A stretch of 64,000 nucleotides of DNA. Source: Desulfovibrio sp. A2. Its GTDB lineage: Bacteria; Desulfobacterota; Desulfovibrionia; Desulfovibrionales; Desulfovibrionaceae. Position numbers and translations under genes: made by a program. The notes below the pieces were generated by a model. That model was not told where the DNA came from and made no database searches. It worked only from the letters and a program-made list of their open reading frames with translations. The stretch lies in NCBI RefSeq assembly GCF_000226255.1, contig NZ_AGFG01000064.1, forward strand, positions 84,169 to 148,168, given 5' to 3'. Positions within the stretch are counted from its first letter, which is position 1; the number at the start of each line of letters is the position of its first letter. Positions 45,758 to 52,690 of the stretch are shown here, one piece after another.

Positions 45758-46091
45758 CCGGCGCGCCCGGTGCGTGAGGGAGGGGGCAGCCGTCCGTTCC
45801 CCATGGCAGTCCGGCCATTCCCGAGAAGCACGCCGTCCCCGTGCGCATGCGCACGAGGGGCGGCGCGCGCGTTGTCGCCCGTCATGGCCGCGTGGTCACA
45901 CGGATTGTTCCACGCCGCTCTGTGCGGCGCGGGCCGGGCGCGTGTGAAGAAATGTCAGGCCGTGCACCGTGCCCCCGCACGGCGTGGTAAGCGTATACTC
46001 CGCGCCGCCGACCTTTCCGTTGCCGCATTCAGCGCATGGGTGTAGTATCCCCAGCGAATTGACCGTACGTTTTCCCCCACAGGAGATGCAC
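45758..46091. other. Intergenic region between uvrA and the NYN gene
   Basis: 334 bases, GC-rich. The AAGCGTATACTCC stretch (45989-46001) resembles a -10 region. No gene or terminator is convincing. Confidence 0.3.
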
Positions 46092-47348
46092 ATGGGCCGA
46101 TTTACCGGCTTCGATGAAGTATATGCCGCGCTGTATGTGGATTTCGACAACATATATTCACGCCTGCGGGAACAGGACGAAGATGTCGCCCGGGCCTTTG
46201 CCACCAACCCCCAGCGCTGGGTGAAGTGGATCGAAGGGCATGCCCTGCGCATGCTGTACGGAGACGGCGTGCGCCGCCGCATCCTCAAGCGCATCTGCTA
46301 CATGAATCCGCAGTGTTTTCACGAGTTCCGTCCGTTTTTCATCCGTGCCGCCTTCCAGGTGGTGGATTGCCCGCCGCTGACCAACCAGGGCAAGACCAGC
46401 GCCGACATCCACCTGGTCATGGACTGCATGGACGCGCTGAATCACTCCACCCGCTTCGATGAGTTCATCATCCTTTCCGGCGATGCGGACTTCACGCCGC
46501 TGCTCATCCGCTTGCAGGAACACGCCCGCCGCCCGCTGGTGCTTTCCGTGGGCTACACCTCGCCCGCGTACACCGCCGCCGCCTCGTGGCGCATCCGCGA
46601 AGACTGGTTCGTGCAGCAGGCCCTGGAAGAGGAACGCCCGATGGAGGCCGCGCCCGCGCCCGCCCCGTTCGTCCCGCGCGGCAACGGCGAACGGCTGGCC
46701 CGCGTGGCCGAGGTGGTGCGCCGCATCGTGGCCGATGCCCCGGCCCCCGTGGGCTTCGCCTCGCTGGCCCAGATGCTGCAGCGAGAGGTGGACCCCGGCG
46801 CGGACTGGTTCGGCTACGGCCGCCTGCGCGACCTGCTGGATGCGCTGGACCTGAAGGGGCTGGAATTCTCGCCCGTGCCGCCCGGCTTCGTGTACGATCC
46901 GGAACGCCACGAGCAGCCCGAAGAACGCGACGCCCACGACGACTTTCGCTCGCGCTACCCCGACCTGTACGACTTCGCCCTGAAGGTGCACCGCCTGACC
47001 GACATGCCCCTGCTGCGGCCCGACCATTTCCGGCAGCTGCTGGGCATCATCGTGGAAGAGGTCAACGCCAACGGGTTCTTCATGACCACCACCTCGCGCA
47101 ACGTGCGCGACCGGTGCGTGGAGGCGGGCCTGCCCATCGCGAGGGGCCACGTGAACTTCGTGCTGGTGGGCATCGCGCGCGGGGGGTACCCCCTCAACGA
47201 GCAGGACGGCGTGAACCTGCGCGAGGTGGGCAAGGCTTTTCTGCGCAATGCCTACGACCTGTGCCGCATGTCGCAGATCGACCTGACCAAGGCGGAACAG
47301 CAGATGCTGATGGTGTGGATTCTGCCGAAGGAGTCGATGGGCGATTAG
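46092..47348 (+). CDS. NYN-domain protein with LOTUS/OST-HTH domains
   Basis: 418 residues. The NYN (PIN-like nuclease) domain spans about 1-180: AALYVDFDNIYSRL has the first acidic pair and FIILSGDADFTPLLIRL the second, with SADIHLVMDCMD between. A LOTUS/OST-HTH domain at about 195-270 (RVAEVVRRIVADAPAPVGFA to GFVYDPE) is followed by a second helical unit of similar character. The layout is like LabA/limkain-b1 proteins, which bind or cut RNA. The target is unknown. The start is chosen six bases after AGGAG; an ATG at 46086 directly abuts it. Confidence 0.88.
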   Translation: MGRFTGFDEVYAALYVDFDNIYSRLREQDEDVARAFATNPQRWVKWIEGHALRMLYGDGVRRRILKRICYMNPQCFHEFRPFFIRAAFQVVDCPPLTNQGKTSADIHLVMDCMDALNHSTRFDEFIILSGDADFTPLLIRLQEHARRPLVLSVGYTSPAYTAAASWRIREDWFVQQALEEERPMEAAPAPAPFVPRGNGERLARVAEVVRRIVADAPAPVGFASLAQMLQREVDPGADWFGYGRLRDLLDALDLKGLEFSPVPPGFVYDPERHEQPEERDAHDDFRSRYPDLYDFALKVHRLTDMPLLRPDHFRQLLGIIVEEVNANGFFMTTTSRNVRDRCVEAGLPIARGHVNFVLVGIARGGYPLNEQDGVNLREVGKAFLRNAYDLCRMSQIDLTKAEQQMLMVWILPKESMGD

Positions 47349-47356
47349 GGGGGCAA

Positions 47357-47495
47357 CCATTGTCACTGCGGTCCTTTTGTCCCCTGCCTGCGTCAGAAGA
47401 GTTTTTTATTCCAGTCAAGTACACGAAGAGTACGTTCCTTCCATAAAGAACTCTTCTTCCTTGGCAGGGAACAAAAAACCTCGCAGTGACAACGG
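47357..47495. repeat. Long imperfect inverted repeat, MITE-like or structured RNA
   Basis: The ends CCATTGTCACTGCG (47357-47370) and CGCAGTGACAACGG (47482-47495) are inverted copies with one mismatch. Pairing continues inward through TTTTGT-CCCTGCC and AGAAGAGTT-TTTAT stretches, almost to the GTAC-acgaaga-GTAC centre. The whole could fold as one arm. It starts nine bases after the NYN gene stop. Lower GC than flanks. No open frame of note inside. Confidence 0.75.
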
Positions 47496-47552
47496 CTGCC
47501 GAAAGACAGATGGCCTTCCCATCTGAAGGCGCGTCGCAACGAAATGAAAAAG

Positions 47553-47584
47553 GAACCGGCTTCCCGCGAGGGGAGCCGGTTTTC
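47553..47584 (+). terminator. Intrinsic terminator
   Basis: AACCGGCT and AGCCGGTT arms around a 12-base loop, followed by TTCT, between the inverted repeat and the ModA-like gene. Confidence 0.7.
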
Positions 47585-47749
47585 TATTGGCACAACGGCG
47601 CGGCACGGGGTGTAGGCGAGGGTGGCCAAGATGTGTCGCTATCCGATTTGTCTATGGTATTGCACTAAATCCATTGGCAATTTGTCTTTGTGGGCATTCC
47701 TCGCGGCGTATAGGGTGGGCGCCACTATCCATTACACGCGGAGGTGTTC

Positions 47750-48610
47750 ATGCGTCAGTTGCAGGATGAGGGGCGGCGGGGATTTCTGCGCGCCTCGCTG
47801 ACCGGGGTGGCGGGGCTGGCCGCCGCCTCCTTGCCGGGTACGGCACAGGCCGCGCCGTTTCCCGGCGGCAGGCTGCAGGTGTGGTCGTGCGGGGGGCTGG
47901 CGGAAGCCATGCAGCCCGCCCATGCGGAGTATGAACGGCGCAGCGGCGCGGCGGTGGTGTACACCGGGGCGTTTGCGGCGGCGCTGGGCAAGTCGCTGCT
48001 GGCCAGCGGCTCGACAGAGGTCTTTGCCGGGCGGGTGCTGGACCTTGCCAAAAAGCTGCGCGCGGCGGGCCGGATGACCTATTTCAAGCCGTTGTGCTTC
48101 ACCAGCTATGTCGTGGTCACGCCCACGGGCAATCCGGGCAACGTGCGTTCCGTGGAAGACATGGCCCGCAAGGGCGTGCGGGTGGCCATGGCCCCGGAAG
48201 CCTCCCCCCCCGGCGGCGCGGCCGTCACCGGGCTGCTCAAGAAAGCGGGGTGCCTGGATGCCGTGATGGCCAACGTGGCCGAACCGGGCACCTGCGTGCA
48301 ACGCTCGGTGGAGGCGGTTGCCGCAGGCAAGGCCGACGCCATGATCGTGGAGTTGCGCGTGACGCGTCTGCCCCAGTTCGCGGGCAAGCTGGACATCGTG
48401 GAAATTCCCGCCGGGTTGTTCCCGCCGCCGCCGCTCACCTTCACCGTGGGCGTCATGCAGGAGGCGCGCGACCGCGCCCTGGCCGACGATTACGTGGCGT
48501 GGATCACCTCTGCCGAAGGGCAGGCCCATTTCGAGCGGGCGGGGTTCATCCCCGCCATTTCACCGCGCGGGCAGGAACTGGTGGAAAAGCTGGGGGTGAA
48601 GGATGTCTGA
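47750..48610 (+). CDS. Tat-exported ModA-like oxyanion-binding protein
   Basis: 286 residues. The N-terminus GRRGFLRASLTGVAGLAAAS is a twin-arginine signal ending AQAAPFPGG. The mature protein resembles molybdate/tungstate binding proteins: LQVWSCGGLAEAMQPAHAEY, VYTGAFAAALGKSLLASGST, TSYVVVTPTGNPGNVRSVED and ITSAEGQAHFERAGFIP. No permease or ATPase gene follows, so it may act as a sensor, carrier or cofactor-binding protein instead of a transporter part. The start follows GGAGG by five bases. It overlaps the next gene by eight bases, starting a three-gene coupled operon. Confidence 0.85.
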   Translation: MRQLQDEGRRGFLRASLTGVAGLAAASLPGTAQAAPFPGGRLQVWSCGGLAEAMQPAHAEYERRSGAAVVYTGAFAAALGKSLLASGSTEVFAGRVLDLAKKLRAAGRMTYFKPLCFTSYVVVTPTGNPGNVRSVEDMARKGVRVAMAPEASPPGGAAVTGLLKKAGCLDAVMANVAEPGTCVQRSVEAVAAGKADAMIVELRVTRLPQFAGKLDIVEIPAGLFPPPPLTFTVGVMQEARDRALADDYVAWITSAEGQAHFERAGFIPAISPRGQELVEKLGVKDV

Positions 48611-49448
48611 TGCGGGCGTGAACGCCGTGAATCCGGCGGGCGGCACGGCGAACCTGACGGAACTGAAGCCCCGCGCCGTGCGTCAGGACGCGCGCGCCCG
48701 CGCGGTGCGGCTGTGGAACCGGGCCGCGCAGGCCGTCATGCTGGCGGTGATCGGCCAGTGGTCGTTCTACGGCATCTTTCGCTGCCCGTTCGTGGTGCCG
48801 TACATCAGTTGCCAGAACTGTCCGGTGGTGGCCTGCCACGGGCGGCTGTTCACCATGTTCTGGGGCGTGTGGGCCGGGTGGCTGGCGCTGGCGGCGCTGT
48901 TCGGCCGCGCCTTCTGCGGCTGGGCCTGCCCCGGCGGCACGGTGAACCGCCTGCTGGGCCTGTTTTCGTCGTCGGGCATGTTCGCGCCGTTGCGCCTGAA
49001 GCCGGGCGGCCTTGCCGCGCGCCTGCTGCCCCTGGGCAAGTACGGCGGGCTGGCGCTGGCCCTGTGGGCCTACTTCGTGCTGGGGCAGCCGCGCGTCAAC
49101 GTGCCCATCCGCACCGGCGAGTTCTTTGGTGCGGTGGCCCTGACTTTCGAGCACGCCATGCCGCTGTGGCTGGTGCGCACGTGGGCGGTGCTGGGCATCC
49201 TGGCGCTGGGCGTGGCGGTGTCCGCCGCGTGGTGCCGCTTTGCCTGTCCGGCGGGCGGGGTGCTGGAGGTCGTGCGCCGCTTCGCGCCGTTCTCGGTGTA
49301 CAAGACCGACGCCTGCAACGGCTGCGACAGGTGCCGCAAGGTTTGCTACATGGCCACGCGGCCCGAGGAAACCAACTGTACCAACTGCGGGGACTGCCTT
49401 GGCTCGTGCCCGCAGGACTGCATCGGCATGGGGCGGAAGCCGCGATGA
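48603..49448 (+). CDS. NapH/CcoG-like membrane iron-sulfur protein
   Basis: 281 residues with about five membrane helices. Membrane-side cysteine motifs are SCQNCPVVACHG, FCGWACPGG and WCRFACPAGG. The C-terminus carries two [4Fe-4S] ferredoxin clusters: CNGCDRCRKVC and CTNCGDCLGSCPQDC. NapH-type proteins pass electrons between quinol and periplasmic or cytoplasmic partners. The stop overlaps the next gene by four bases (ATGA), so it is coupled to the ModA-like and NifB-like proteins and may supply electrons to one of them. Confidence 0.9.
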   Translation: MSDAGVNAVNPAGGTANLTELKPRAVRQDARARAVRLWNRAAQAVMLAVIGQWSFYGIFRCPFVVPYISCQNCPVVACHGRLFTMFWGVWAGWLALAALFGRAFCGWACPGGTVNRLLGLFSSSGMFAPLRLKPGGLAARLLPLGKYGGLALALWAYFVLGQPRVNVPIRTGEFFGAVALTFEHAMPLWLVRTWAVLGILALGVAVSAAWCRFACPAGGVLEVVRRFAPFSVYKTDACNGCDRCRKVCYMATRPEETNCTNCGDCLGSCPQDCIGMGRKPR

Positions 49449-50365
49449 GCGCGGATAGTTCGCGCCATCCGTGCTTTACCGTCGGGGCGCACGGTACGCA
49501 CGCCCGCATCCACCTGCCGGTGGCGGCGGCCTGCAACATCCGTTGCGGCTACTGCGACCGGCGGCACGACTGCGTCAACGAATCGCGCCCCGGCGTGACC
49601 AGCCGCGTGCTCTCCCCGGCGGAGGCCGCGCAATTGGTGAACCGCGCCGTGCAGGCGTTGCCGCACCTCTCGGTGGTGGGCATTGCCGGGCCGGGAGACC
49701 CGCTGGCCAGCCCCGGCCCCACGCTGGAAACACTGGCGCTGGTGCGCAAGGCGCATCCGGGCCTGTTGCTGTGCCTGTCCACCAACGGGCTGGTCCTGCC
49801 GGATCATGCGGATGCGCTGGCCGCGCTGGGCGTGGGGCACGTCACCGTGACCCTGAACGCCGTGGACCCGGCGGTGGGCGCGCGCCTGTACGCCCATGTG
49901 GCCGGAGATGACGGCCGCGCGCTGCATGGCGAGGAAGGCGCGGCGCACCTGCTGGCCCGGCAGGAGGAAGGGCTGGCGCGCCTTGTGCGGGCGGGCATTG
50001 CCGTGAAGGTGAACACCGTGGTGGTGCCCGGCGTCAACGACGGCCACGTGGAGGCGGTTGCCGCGCGCGCCGCCGCGCTGGGGGCCTCGCTGATGAACTG
50101 CATCGGACTCATTCCCGTGGCGGGCACCCCGCTGGGGCACCTGCCCGTGCCCACCCCGCAAGCCATGGAAAGGCTGCGCGCGGCGGCGGGCCGCCACCTG
50201 CCGCAGATGCGCCATTGCGCCCGCTGCCGGGCCGACGCCGCCGGGCTGCTGGGCGACGGCGGCACGTTGGGCGGGCTGGGGCTGCTGCCGGTGGAGGCGG
50301 GTGTGCCGGAAGGGCCGATGGGCCTGCTGGGCGCGGGGCGTTGCGGAACGCGGCGCTGCGGCTGA
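49445..50365 (+). CDS. NifB-like radical SAM protein
   Basis: 306 residues. It keeps the NifB hallmarks: HPC at residues 8-10, CNIRCGYC (Cys30, 34, 37) binding the radical SAM cluster, DCVNESRPGVTS, GIAGPGDPLASP, and HCARCRADAAGLLG (Cys258, 261). NifB fuses two [4Fe-4S] clusters into the carbide-centred precursor of nitrogenase cofactors. This protein lacks the NifX-like C-terminal domain, as in the short archaeal-type NifB. No nif gene lies in the window, and the gene is coupled to a membrane ferredoxin and a ModA-like protein. It may be a true NifB displaced from a nif cluster, or make a related cluster for another enzyme. Confidence 0.88.
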   Translation: MSADSSRHPCFTVGAHGTHARIHLPVAAACNIRCGYCDRRHDCVNESRPGVTSRVLSPAEAAQLVNRAVQALPHLSVVGIAGPGDPLASPGPTLETLALVRKAHPGLLLCLSTNGLVLPDHADALAALGVGHVTVTLNAVDPAVGARLYAHVAGDDGRALHGEEGAAHLLARQEEGLARLVRAGIAVKVNTVVVPGVNDGHVEAVAARAAALGASLMNCIGLIPVAGTPLGHLPVPTPQAMERLRAAAGRHLPQMRHCARCRADAAGLLGDGGTLGGLGLLPVEAGVPEGPMGLLGAGRCGTRRCG

Positions 50366-50426
50366 AGGCGCACGCCAGACGCCGTCCCCGGTACCGGTGC
50401 CCTGCACCAAACGGAAGACAACGCGA

Positions 50427-50462
50427 AAAGGACGCCGTTCCCCTTGGGGTGGCGTCCTTTCC
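50427..50462. terminator. Intrinsic terminator after the NifB-like operon
   Basis: Perfect ten-base arms AAAGGACGCC and GGCGTCCTTT around a 14-base loop, 61 bases after the stop. Confidence 0.85.
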
Positions 50463-50549
50463 TGTTTGCGGTCAGCGCGGCGGAGGCTGGTGCGATGGAC
50501 GTGGGCAGCCCGGTGGCCGCGCGATGAAGGCTGGCGCGCGGGCTACGGG

Positions 50550-51236
50550 CTACTTGCCTTCGCCCCAGACCTGCTCCAGCCGTTTGTCGCGGCCGCAACT
50601 GGTCCGGTAGTAGGTATAGCGGAGGGGGTTCTTGCGGTAGTAGTCTTGGTGGTAGTCCTCGGCGGGCCAGAAGGTGGAGGCGTCCACGATCTCGGTGGCC
50701 ACTGGACGGCCCAGGCGCGCCTCCACCGCCTTCTTGCTGGCTTCGGCGGCGCGGCGCTGGTCCGCGCCGGCCACGAAGATGGCCGAGCGGTACTGGTTGC
50801 CCCGGTCGCAGAACTGGCCGCCCGCGTCCAGCGGGTCCACGTTGCGCCAGAAGACGTCCAGCAGGGTTTCATAGCTTACTTTTGCCGGATCGTAGGTCAC
50901 CCGCAGGGCTTCGGCGTGCCCGGTAAGGCCAGAGGACACCTGCTTGTAGGTGGGGGAATCCACCGCGCCGCCGGTGTAGCCGGAGGTGGTCTCCAGCACG
51001 CCGTCCCTCTGGTCGAAGGGCTTTTCCATGCACCAGAAGCAGCCCCCGGCGAACACGGCCGTGGCCGTGGCGGCCTGCGGCGTTGCGGCATCCGTCTGGG
51101 CGGCGCGGGCCGTGGCGGGCAGCAGCGCGGCCGTCAGCAGCAAGGCGAAAAGGGGCAGAAGATACGCCAGGGTGGTCAATGCGGCCACGGCGGGCGCAGC
51201 GGTTTCGATGAGATGGGATGGAAACAGGGTGGACAT
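50550..51236 (-). CDS. msrA: Peptide methionine-S-sulfoxide reductase, exported
   Basis: 228 residues. A hydrophobic N-terminal segment (about 15-45, ending ATARAAQ) suggests export or anchoring, unlike cytoplasmic MsrA. The catalytic site is AVFAGGCFWCMEKPF (about 60-74). SGYTGGAVDSPTYKQVSSGL, EALRVTYDP, WRNVDP and EDYHQDYY follow in family order. It repairs oxidised methionine in envelope proteins; DsbD-type thiol supply would be needed, and dsbD is present in this window. The start at MSTLFPS follows GGGAG. Confidence 0.94.
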   Translation of the reverse strand: MSTLFPSHLIETAAPAVAALTTLAYLLPLFALLLTAALLPATARAAQTDAATPQAATATAVFAGGCFWCMEKPFDQRDGVLETTSGYTGGAVDSPTYKQVSSGLTGHAEALRVTYDPAKVSYETLLDVFWRNVDPLDAGGQFCDRGNQYRSAIFVAGADQRRAAEASKKAVEARLGRPVATEIVDASTFWPAEDYHQDYYRKNPLRYTYYRTSCGRDKRLEQVWGEGK

Positions 51237-51347
51237 GATGCGCACTCCCGTGCCGGTGGCGGCGCGCCGGAAGTGGCGCGCCCGTCCGGGCACCATGACA
51301 GATATAGCACGCCCGCGCCGGGAGTACAGGGGGAGCGCGGCGGGCGA

Positions 51348-52439
51348 CTACCCCCCGGCCCAGATGTCCGCCAGCCGGGCGCGGTGGTGCAGCAGGATGT
51401 CGCAGTAGTCCAGTTCCATCTCCAGCATGTCCCGGTCGCCCCGGCGCAGCCATTCCGACAGCCACCCGAAGCGCGAGCCCAGCACCATCAGCGGCAGGTG
51501 GCGCAGAGTGTCCGCCGGTATCCCGGCGAGGCCGTATGATGCCGCGCCCTCGCGCAGCGTGGCGGTGAACCCGGCGGCAAAGCCGCGCCCCAGGCCGGAA
51601 GGATGCTCGAACCCCACGCAGCCCATGCAGTTGGCGGCGTCGTACAGGATGGGTTGGGCTCCGGCGAATTCCCAGTCGATGACCCCGCGCAACGCGGCCA
51701 GCGGGTTCGTGGACGGCGGAATCTCGTCACCTTCTCCGCAGGGCGTCCAGATCAGGTTCAGGGGGTGGGCGTCGCCGTGGGCCAGCACCACCGGCTGGGC
51801 GGCCAGCACGTCGGGCAGGGATTCCAGCGCGTCGCGCACCGGGTGCAGGCGGCGGGCCGCTTCGGGCATGCGGCGGGCCACGGCCTCGTGCAGTCCGGCG
51901 ATGAACGCGGGCAGCGGCGGCACCGGCGCGGGGGGCAGCCCGGCGGGCAGGTTGTCCCCGGCCCGGTGCAGGGCCAGCAGCAGGGCGGCCACGGCCTGGC
52001 CGCGCCAGCCATGGTCAAGGTAGTCCGGGCGGGGCGGCTCCGCGCCGGGCACGAAGGGCGAAAGCTGCCAGTATCCGGCGTGGGGCGGCATATCCGACGC
52101 CAGCACGTAGCGCAGGATGCCGGGCCGCGCGGAATCCGCGCCGCCTGCGGGGGCCGCAGGCCCGCCGCCCACCGGCCCGTCGTCCGCCGGCAGATACGCG
52201 GGCACCAGGGCGGCCAGGTCCGGGCCGAAAACGGCCGGGTCCGCCAGCCGCGCCAGAAGTTCGCCCATGGCCTCGCGCCGGGGGGCCTGCGCCGGGGCCA
52301 GCCGCTCCAGCATCCACAGCCGCCCGTCGTCGCCCTGCACCGCCGTGCGGGTCAGGCAGCGCTCCGGGCTGCCGGGCAGGGGGAATTCGGCGGCGAGGCG
52401 GCGCGGGGTGACGCCGAAGCGGTACAGCAGATCGAGCAT
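51348..52439 (-). CDS. Aminoglycoside phosphotransferase-family kinase-like protein
   Basis: 363 residues. A kinase-like fold of the APH/choline kinase type is shown by VVLAHGDAHPLNLIW (catalytic loop, about 215) and LRGVIDWEFAGAQPILYD (DFG-equivalent, about 245). The N-terminal lobe is weak. Phosphorylation of a small molecule is expected; the substrate is unknown and antibiotic resistance should not be assumed. The start follows GGAG at MLDLLYRF; the frame is open upstream without support. Confidence 0.82.
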   Translation of the reverse strand: MLDLLYRFGVTPRRLAAEFPLPGSPERCLTRTAVQGDDGRLWMLERLAPAQAPRREAMGELLARLADPAVFGPDLAALVPAYLPADDGPVGGGPAAPAGGADSARPGILRYVLASDMPPHAGYWQLSPFVPGAEPPRPDYLDHGWRGQAVAALLLALHRAGDNLPAGLPPAPVPPLPAFIAGLHEAVARRMPEAARRLHPVRDALESLPDVLAAQPVVLAHGDAHPLNLIWTPCGEGDEIPPSTNPLAALRGVIDWEFAGAQPILYDAANCMGCVGFEHPSGLGRGFAAGFTATLREGAASYGLAGIPADTLRHLPLMVLGSRFGWLSEWLRRGDRDMLEMELDYCDILLHHRARLADIWAGG

Positions 52440-52690
52440 GAAGGCTCCATGGGCGGTTGGGGTGGCGGATGCGGTGTGCAAGGCTTTGGCGACTGCGCAG
52501 GGGGGGCGAGGGCGCAGTCTTTCACGGCGGGCGGCTCCCTGTCCAGATACGCCTGTGGCCGGATGCCGGACCGCCGCTTGCACATTGCCACGGTCGTCGG
52601 GGCAACGTAGTATCACCCCGCGTTGTCGTTCCGCGCCCCACGTTCCGCGTCCGCCAGCCCGGCCCCCGGCCGCTCCGGAGAATTCCCGCC

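Follow-up and report, generated by a model that had tools for sequence, protein, structure and literature searches.

What does a short NifB-like enzyme do in an operon with a ModA-like binding protein and a NapH-like ferredoxin, when NifB and its cluster are usually taken as marks of nitrogen fixation (exceptions described in PMC12552129 and PMC12176620 are Mar and the activation of MCR)? The question is raised by a locus of Desulfovibrio sp. A2 (contig NZ_AGFG01000064.1, positions 84,169 to 148,168 of the forward strand); this stretch of 64,000 nucleotides is the window, and coordinates without a prefix count from its first base. Three genes follow one another there:

47750..48610, + strand: ModA-like protein (286 amino acids) with a Tat-type (twin-arginine) start and a ModA fold (profile matches, AlphaFold2 model)
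48603..49448, + strand: NapH-like membrane ferredoxin (281 amino acids) with about four membrane helices (profile match, hydropathy, model)
49445..50365, + strand: short NifB-like radical SAM protein (306 amino acids) without the NifX part (profile match, motifs)

The coordinates bear out the overlaps of the original prediction, which was made from the window alone: 8 bases between the ModA-like and NapH-like genes and 4 bases between the NapH-like and NifB-like genes. The reading that we prefer, with a probability of about one half, is a nitrogenase-independent NifB client system with an exported ModA-fold protein and a NapH-like electron carrier.

Spread of the module and its tie to NifB

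The same three-gene order occurs in five of the eight genomes of the genus, the remaining three being 86, 93 and 75% complete. A scan of GTDB genomes for the ModA-like family gave 67 loci from five phyla (taxa as named in the records, many of them metagenome-assembled genomes), spanning sulfate reducers, Syntrophobacteraceae, Geobacteraceae, Sporomusa, Anaerospora, Megasphaera, Campylobacter concisus, Acidobacteria and Phycisphaerae; the order thus recurs within the genus and across phyla. The NapH-like gene follows the ModA-like gene in 62 of the 63 loci with room for it, the sole exception (L128) being a ModA fragment, and 4 more loci are cut by contig ends. The NifB-like gene adjoins the pair in 40 of the 67 loci (34 downstream, 4 upstream and 2 cut by a contig end), so that two orders are seen, ModA-NapH-NifB in 34 loci and NifB-ModA-NapH in 4; elsewhere it is a remnant (1, L090), is absent beside the pair (17) or has no room (4). 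The remnant, in Sporomusa silvacetica (L090:9930-10118), matches residues 8-70 only of the operon NifB, and three longer NifBs are found elsewhere in that genome. ModA and NifB protein distances correlate over 36 loci (r 0.73, with 0 of 2000 permutations as high), a correlation partly fed by shared host ancestry. Campylobacter concisus groups with Megasphaera in both the ModA and the NifB tree, which fits an operon that was transferred as a unit. We hold it almost certain that ModA-NapH-NifB is a real module.

Matches to NifD (E 1e-20) and NifB (E 1e-30) were sought in 50 operon-bearing genomes, comprising 16 genomes of the phylum sample and, selected for their spread and their flanks, the hosts of 34 of the 67 loci; 47 remained after the removal of three duplicates recognised by identical matches (G412, G416, G433). 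NifB was present in all 47. NifD was matched in 27 (in G404 under the curated cut-off) and gave no match in 20, among them Campylobacter concisus and two Megasphaera. Across the phylum sample NifB occurs in 110 of 395 genomes, in 16 of 16 with the ModA-like gene as against 94 of 379 without it (Fisher 6e-10). Adjacency, scored by hand from coordinates, differs with the presence of nitrogenase: NifB adjoins the pair in 19 of the 20 hosts without NifD, the ModA gene of the other (G434) starting at a contig end, and in 13 of the 27 with NifD, where it is a remnant in one (G409) and not beside the pair in 13 (Fisher 8e-5 without G434, 6e-4 with G434 counted against). Since NifB is in 47 of 47 hosts and is adjacent so much more often where NifD is lacking, the ModA-NapH pair very probably needs the NifB product; read plainly, these gene arrangements would mean that the pair carries a NifB along with it when the host has no nif NifB to offer. 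Four Solidesulfovibrio loci have the pair without its own NifB, and there nifE, nifN and nifB are 5-10 kb away.

Might the operon merely assist nitrogenase, with a spare NifB and a molybdate scavenger? The 27 hosts with NifD, this one included, and the Solidesulfovibrio loci near nifENB are in its favour. On a contig other than that of the operon, the host genome (G000, 99.98% complete) carries a nif cluster, with nifD at G000:C25:146231 and a NifB with its NifX part at C25:154313; no nitrogenase gene is seen near the operon, in keeping with the earlier remark that the window holds none, but the genome does have one. Against such a role are the 20 hosts without a NifD match, homologues of nif D/K/E/N in the examined flanks of just 4 of the 67 loci (flanks reach up to 10 kb, many being shorter), the loss of the molybdate residues and the separation of the operon NifBs from the nif NifB of the genus in our tree, both described below. 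We rejected this explanation, and consider it very unlikely. The operon keeps no constant company with a nif cluster, and the suggested setting outside nitrogen fixation is upheld by those same 20 hosts.

Two Sporomusa genomes, and one draft each from Bacillota and Geobacteraceae, carry some ten NifD-like genes arrayed over about 40-85 kb (G408:C1:2.88-2.97 Mb, G409:C105, G418:C130, G421:C50).

The three proteins

Against TIGR01290 (nifB) the NifB-like protein scores 324.7 bits, under the curated cut-off of 343.65, over profile positions 8-278 of 441; the low score is partly due to the missing NifX part. All hallmarks listed in the original prediction were found (HPC, CNIRCGYC, ESRPGV, GPGDPL and HCxxCRADA, here HCARCRADA), and the NifX domain is indeed absent. 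MaNifB is described as binding SAM through C50, C54 and C57, the K1 cluster through C30, C63, C129 and H43, and the K2 cluster through C264 (proposed), C274 and C277 (PMC7145814, PMC6053413). The window NifB keeps C30, C34 and C37 for SAM, C10, H23, C43 and C110 for K1, and C258 and C261 for K2, where the comparison covered the last two cysteines only. The main positions are as follows:

49466..49474, + strand: HPC motif, its Cys10 equivalent to K1 ligand Cys30 of MaNifB (ligand alignment)
49532..49555, + strand: radical SAM motif C30-C34-C37 (41 of 41 operon NifBs)
49571..49582, + strand: C43-V-N-E46, its Cys43 equivalent to K1 ligand Cys63 of MaNifB (37 of 41 operon NifBs)
50216..50227, + strand: Cys258 and Cys261, at K2-cluster ligand positions (41 of 41 operon NifBs)

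Among the 41 operon NifBs the SAM, K1 and last two K2 ligands are kept save for Cys43 in the four of reversed order; one row (L106) has the N-terminal end missing from its match. The short protein should work like a NifB, and its product is probably a cluster of the [8Fe-9S-C] type. A different product for the same client, such as a fused cluster that lacks carbide or a sulfur or selenium species bearing a methyl group, would fit the score under the equivalog cut-off (a score that the missing NifX part lowers) and the K1 ligand lost from four members. We think it improbable, since the window NifB retains the ligand positions for SAM and K1 and two of those for K2; moreover, G434 apart, the tested pairs without their own NifB are all in hosts that have NifD and a NifB elsewhere, which would suit one and the same product.

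In a quick, unrooted NifB tree (83 rows, 41 of them operon NifBs, with a small nif sample picked by similarity to the query), 31 rows group together (SH-aLRT, the Shimodaira–Hasegawa-like approximate likelihood ratio test, 97), comprising the Desulfovibrio-type nif NifBs, NifX-bearing proteins and two further small groups, and the operon NifBs fall outside the Desulfovibrio-type nif group. Five proteobacterial nif NifBs are placed elsewhere in the tree, so that the operon NifBs may belong to more than one clade and the tree sets neither the root nor the direction of descent. The closest named relatives of the window protein are from Nitratidesulfovibrio.

Other NifB relatives came to light. 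The nif cluster of the host holds a pseudo-NifB between nifDK and nifE-like genes (G000:C25:149485-150591, L031), which has the NifB fold and a NifX-like tail and has lost the radical SAM motif (CNIRCGYC to SNARSRHG); it is conserved in seven of the eight genus genomes (L031; also L032, L036-L038, L026, L033). A further NifB with an apparent NifX-like tail (G007:C1:76000-88000, L130) adjoins an apparent homocitrate-synthase-like gene and a NifA-like regulator, and relatives of this NifB are found in four of the eight. In a NifB-like protein named for Desulfovibrio desulfuricans (P0168), Tyr replaces the third Cys of the SAM motif.

The ModA-like protein matches Pfam SBP_bac_11 and scores 47.2 bits against TIGR01256 (modA), under the curated cut-off of 62.5. 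The closest solved folds to its AlphaFold2 model (pLDDT, the predicted local distance difference test, 89.3) are those of ModA; as modelled, it has the ModA fold. Its Tat-type start reads RRGFLRA. The alignment has 55 members, made up of 14 of 120 listed proteins, 40 of the 67 loci and the window protein, and the following residues stand out:

47774..47779, + strand: twin-arginine pair R9-R10 (55 of 55 aligned members)
47888..47890, + strand: invariant Cys47 within VWSCGGLAE; the first molybdate-Ser position of ModA comes two residues later
48095..48097, + strand: invariant Cys116 (55 of 55), Asp in true ModA of the genus
48293..48295, + strand: invariant Cys182 (55 of 55), just before the ModA Val152 position, Ser in true ModA of the genus
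48350..48352, + strand: invariant Glu201, at the molybdate-Tyr position of ModA

Some loci were found with a pattern that holds Cys47 and Gly49, so the invariance of these two is partly built in; that of Ala76, Cys116, Cys182 and Glu201 is not. The anion contacts of ModA include Ser12, Ser39, Val152 and Tyr170, as measured for perrhenate (PMC8895017). The molybdate side chains Ser, Ser and Tyr are replaced by Gly49, Ala76 and Glu201 in 55 of 55 members; Cys47 and Cys182 are close in sequence to the replaced positions and Cys116 is further on. True ModA of the genus has Ser, Ser and Tyr at the side-chain positions and Ala, Ser and Asp at the Cys positions, and the host has a separate canonical ModA that reads the same at these motifs. 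On the alignment, then, the family has lost the molybdate side chains, and molybdate binding was rejected.

The original prediction of a Tat-exported oxyanion-binding protein is thus right as to the start and the fold, but not as to molybdate, and the molybdenum or tungsten role offered with it is not supported. That the protein is a sensor or binder of these oxyanions draws on the ModA fold; with the three side chains replaced, a canonical ModA in the same genome and a scan of the adjacent genes that turned up no transporter, we give it next to no credence. The neighbour scan took in six genes at 45969-52616 and found no ABC permease or ATPase, in agreement with the earlier claim, and no further nap genes; more distant genes are outside its scope. 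Export by the twin-arginine pathway suggests that a cofactor would be loaded in the cytoplasm beforehand.

The NapH-like protein matches TIGR02163 (napH) weakly (36.6 bits, cut-off 213.05). Hydropathy and a model (pLDDT 73.6) predict about four membrane helices, and a structure search with the model gave no convincing solved relative (best E 0.59). Sixteen cysteines are invariant in 41 of 41 NapH-like proteins, in a CP..C..CP..C loop, two CxxxC pairs and two 4-Cys ferredoxin motifs, which agrees with the original description of a membrane protein with two ferredoxin clusters:

48783..48836, + strand: Cys-rich loop C61, C70, C73, C78 after the first membrane helix (41 of 41; at least 98% among 62)
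49314..49409, + strand: two 4-Cys ferredoxin motifs, C238-C248 and C259-C269 (conserved Cys)

Neighbouring genes and a selenium lead

The examined flanks contain a YedE homologue at 10 of the 67 loci, in three phyla, SelD at 4, and an SclA-like enzyme that is clear at 3 and weak at 2 more; the YedE homologues scanned (L092, L102, L120) score 448-505 bits, with the TIGR04112 cut-off at 200. YedE, YedF, LysR_Se and DUF3343 are described as a selenium gene set (PMC5322559). In the phylum sample YedE is found in 12 of 16 ModA-positive genomes as against 166 of 379 others (Fisher 0.013). The genes might then serve to acquire selenium or sulfur oxyanions, the ModA-fold cysteines capturing selenite or a related compound, the NapH-like protein reducing it, YedE importing it and SelD using it, with NifB supplying a cluster or using the chalcogen. 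SelD occurs in 45 of the 47 hosts (not in G422 and G428), but also in 348 of 395 phylum-sample genomes, and we rejected its co-occurrence as proof of a selenium role; in the host genome nothing matches TIGR04112 at E 1e-50. Alone, this explanation leaves NifB unexplained, and we consider it rather doubtful, although it is compatible with an exported NifB client. The selenium lead is a hint that comes mainly from the neighbourhood.

A Pfam Alginate_exp protein, of an outer-membrane porin type, lies near the operon in four loci (L091:1573-3075, L100:8402-9970, L118:2842-4407 and, on the minus strand, L102:7170-8663), and a MauE-type membrane protein with a rhodanese is near ModA-NapH in four (L071, L108, L112, L119).

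In the window an NYN-domain gene lies upstream of the operon, and msrA downstream on the opposite strand. Upstream of the ModA-like gene one block is kept in the genus:

47686..47749, + strand: upstream block that includes GGAGG ahead of the start codon and the sequence CTTTGT...TATAGG

The block is kept in three rows (the window, L043 and L046), and its CTTTGT...TATAGG stretch may be a promoter; no consensus sigma-70 promoter was found upstream of the operon. An Rfam scan of the window gave two tRNAs only, both distant from the operon.

Proposed mechanism and known systems

The co-occurrence suggests that the hosts make a NifB-type cluster and put it to use. In the mechanism that we propose, the short NifB would make a cluster of the [8Fe-9S-C] type (NifB-co or L-cluster) in the cytoplasm, and this or a derivative would be loaded onto the ModA-fold protein, whose anion cleft would be rebuilt with Cys47, Cys182, Glu201 and perhaps Cys116. 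The folded, loaded protein would be exported through the Tat pathway and might be a small reductase or redox carrier, selenium or sulfur compounds being the best substrate lead; the NapH-like protein would connect it by electron transfer to the quinone pool or the cytoplasm. We infer the identity of the cluster, its binding by the ModA-fold protein, the direction of the electrons and the substrate; for the ModA-fold protein as carrier we judge the odds to be even. The full form, in which an exported ModA-fold [8Fe-9S-C] enzyme, wired to quinone by the NapH-like ferredoxin, reduces a selenium or sulfur compound in several phyla, is tentative and on balance unlikely.

A number of points weigh against the preferred NifB client system. 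The Fisher tests above treat related genomes as independent, so that their values are too small and serve as indications only. From the pairs without an adjacent NifB, NifB could be only a frequent companion; 6 of these 17 loci are outside the NifD sample (L076, L083, L084, L091, L114, L116). The 20 of 47 without NifD were counted in operon-bearing hosts alone; many hosts are drafts or metagenome-assembled, the lack of NifD in such an assembly may reflect a gap, and the phylum represented by a single case (Phycisphaerae) may be mis-binned. The four reversed-order NifBs have no Cys43 equivalent, three of them also no Glu46, and their product may differ. On the unrooted tree the operon NifBs need 2 label changes rather than forming one clean clade, and the Desulfovibrio-type nif group could root within them. 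Finally, the meeting of Cys47, Cys116 and Cys182 in one site is putative.

The module, often present in hosts without a NifD match, suggests an unrecognised use of the iron-sulfur-carbon cluster of NifB, and it means that nifB alone should not be taken as a sign of diazotrophy. If the full form of the mechanism is right, the ModA-fold protein would be a third protein lineage for the [8Fe-9S-C] cluster, joining the Nif family and the proteins that activate MCR. This protein is small and testable, and may let a cluster built by NifB react outside the cell membrane; to our knowledge no [8Fe-9S-C] cluster protein outside the cytoplasm was known before. The operon is not named in the titles or opening abstracts of the open-access PMC literature found, which is no proof of novelty.

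By curated cut-offs the operon proteins are outside the ModA, NapH and full-length NifB families. With nitrogenase-cluster NifB (TIGR01290; structures 6y1x, 7bi7, 7jma, 7jmb) the operon NifB has in common the radical SAM core, the HPC and HCxxCRADA motifs, the SAM and K1 ligands and two K2 ligands; it differs in lacking the NifX part, in scoring under the equivalog cut-off, in sitting with ModA-like and NapH-like genes and in occurring in hosts with or without NifD. Unlike ModA, the ModA-like protein has a twin-arginine start, three invariant Cys and no molybdate side chains, and its gene has no ABC partners among the adjacent genes scanned. The NapH-like protein shares membrane helices, a CGWxCP-type motif and two 4-Cys ferredoxin motifs with the NapH and MauN membrane ferredoxins, but is far under the napH cut-off and has an invariant 4-Cys loop after the first helix.

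Among whole systems, the selenium gene set has YedE, and SelD, beside some operon copies; the words NapH, radical SAM and ferredoxin are absent from the main text of PMC5322559. McrC and Mmp7 of the archaeal MCR activation complex are described as proteins that do not belong to the Nif family and carry potential [8Fe-9S-C] clusters, the ligands being Cys and His and one cluster being held by two Cys (PMC12176620); that complex is archaeal, a different protein complex, and has the task of activating MCR. In methylthio-alkane reductase a NifB-type maturase, MarB, whose role is assumed by the authors, serves a client that does not fix nitrogen (PMC12552129). That client is a nitrogenase-like enzyme, whereas the client proposed for the operon has a ModA fold; an exported ModA-fold client for a NifB cluster would be a new kind.

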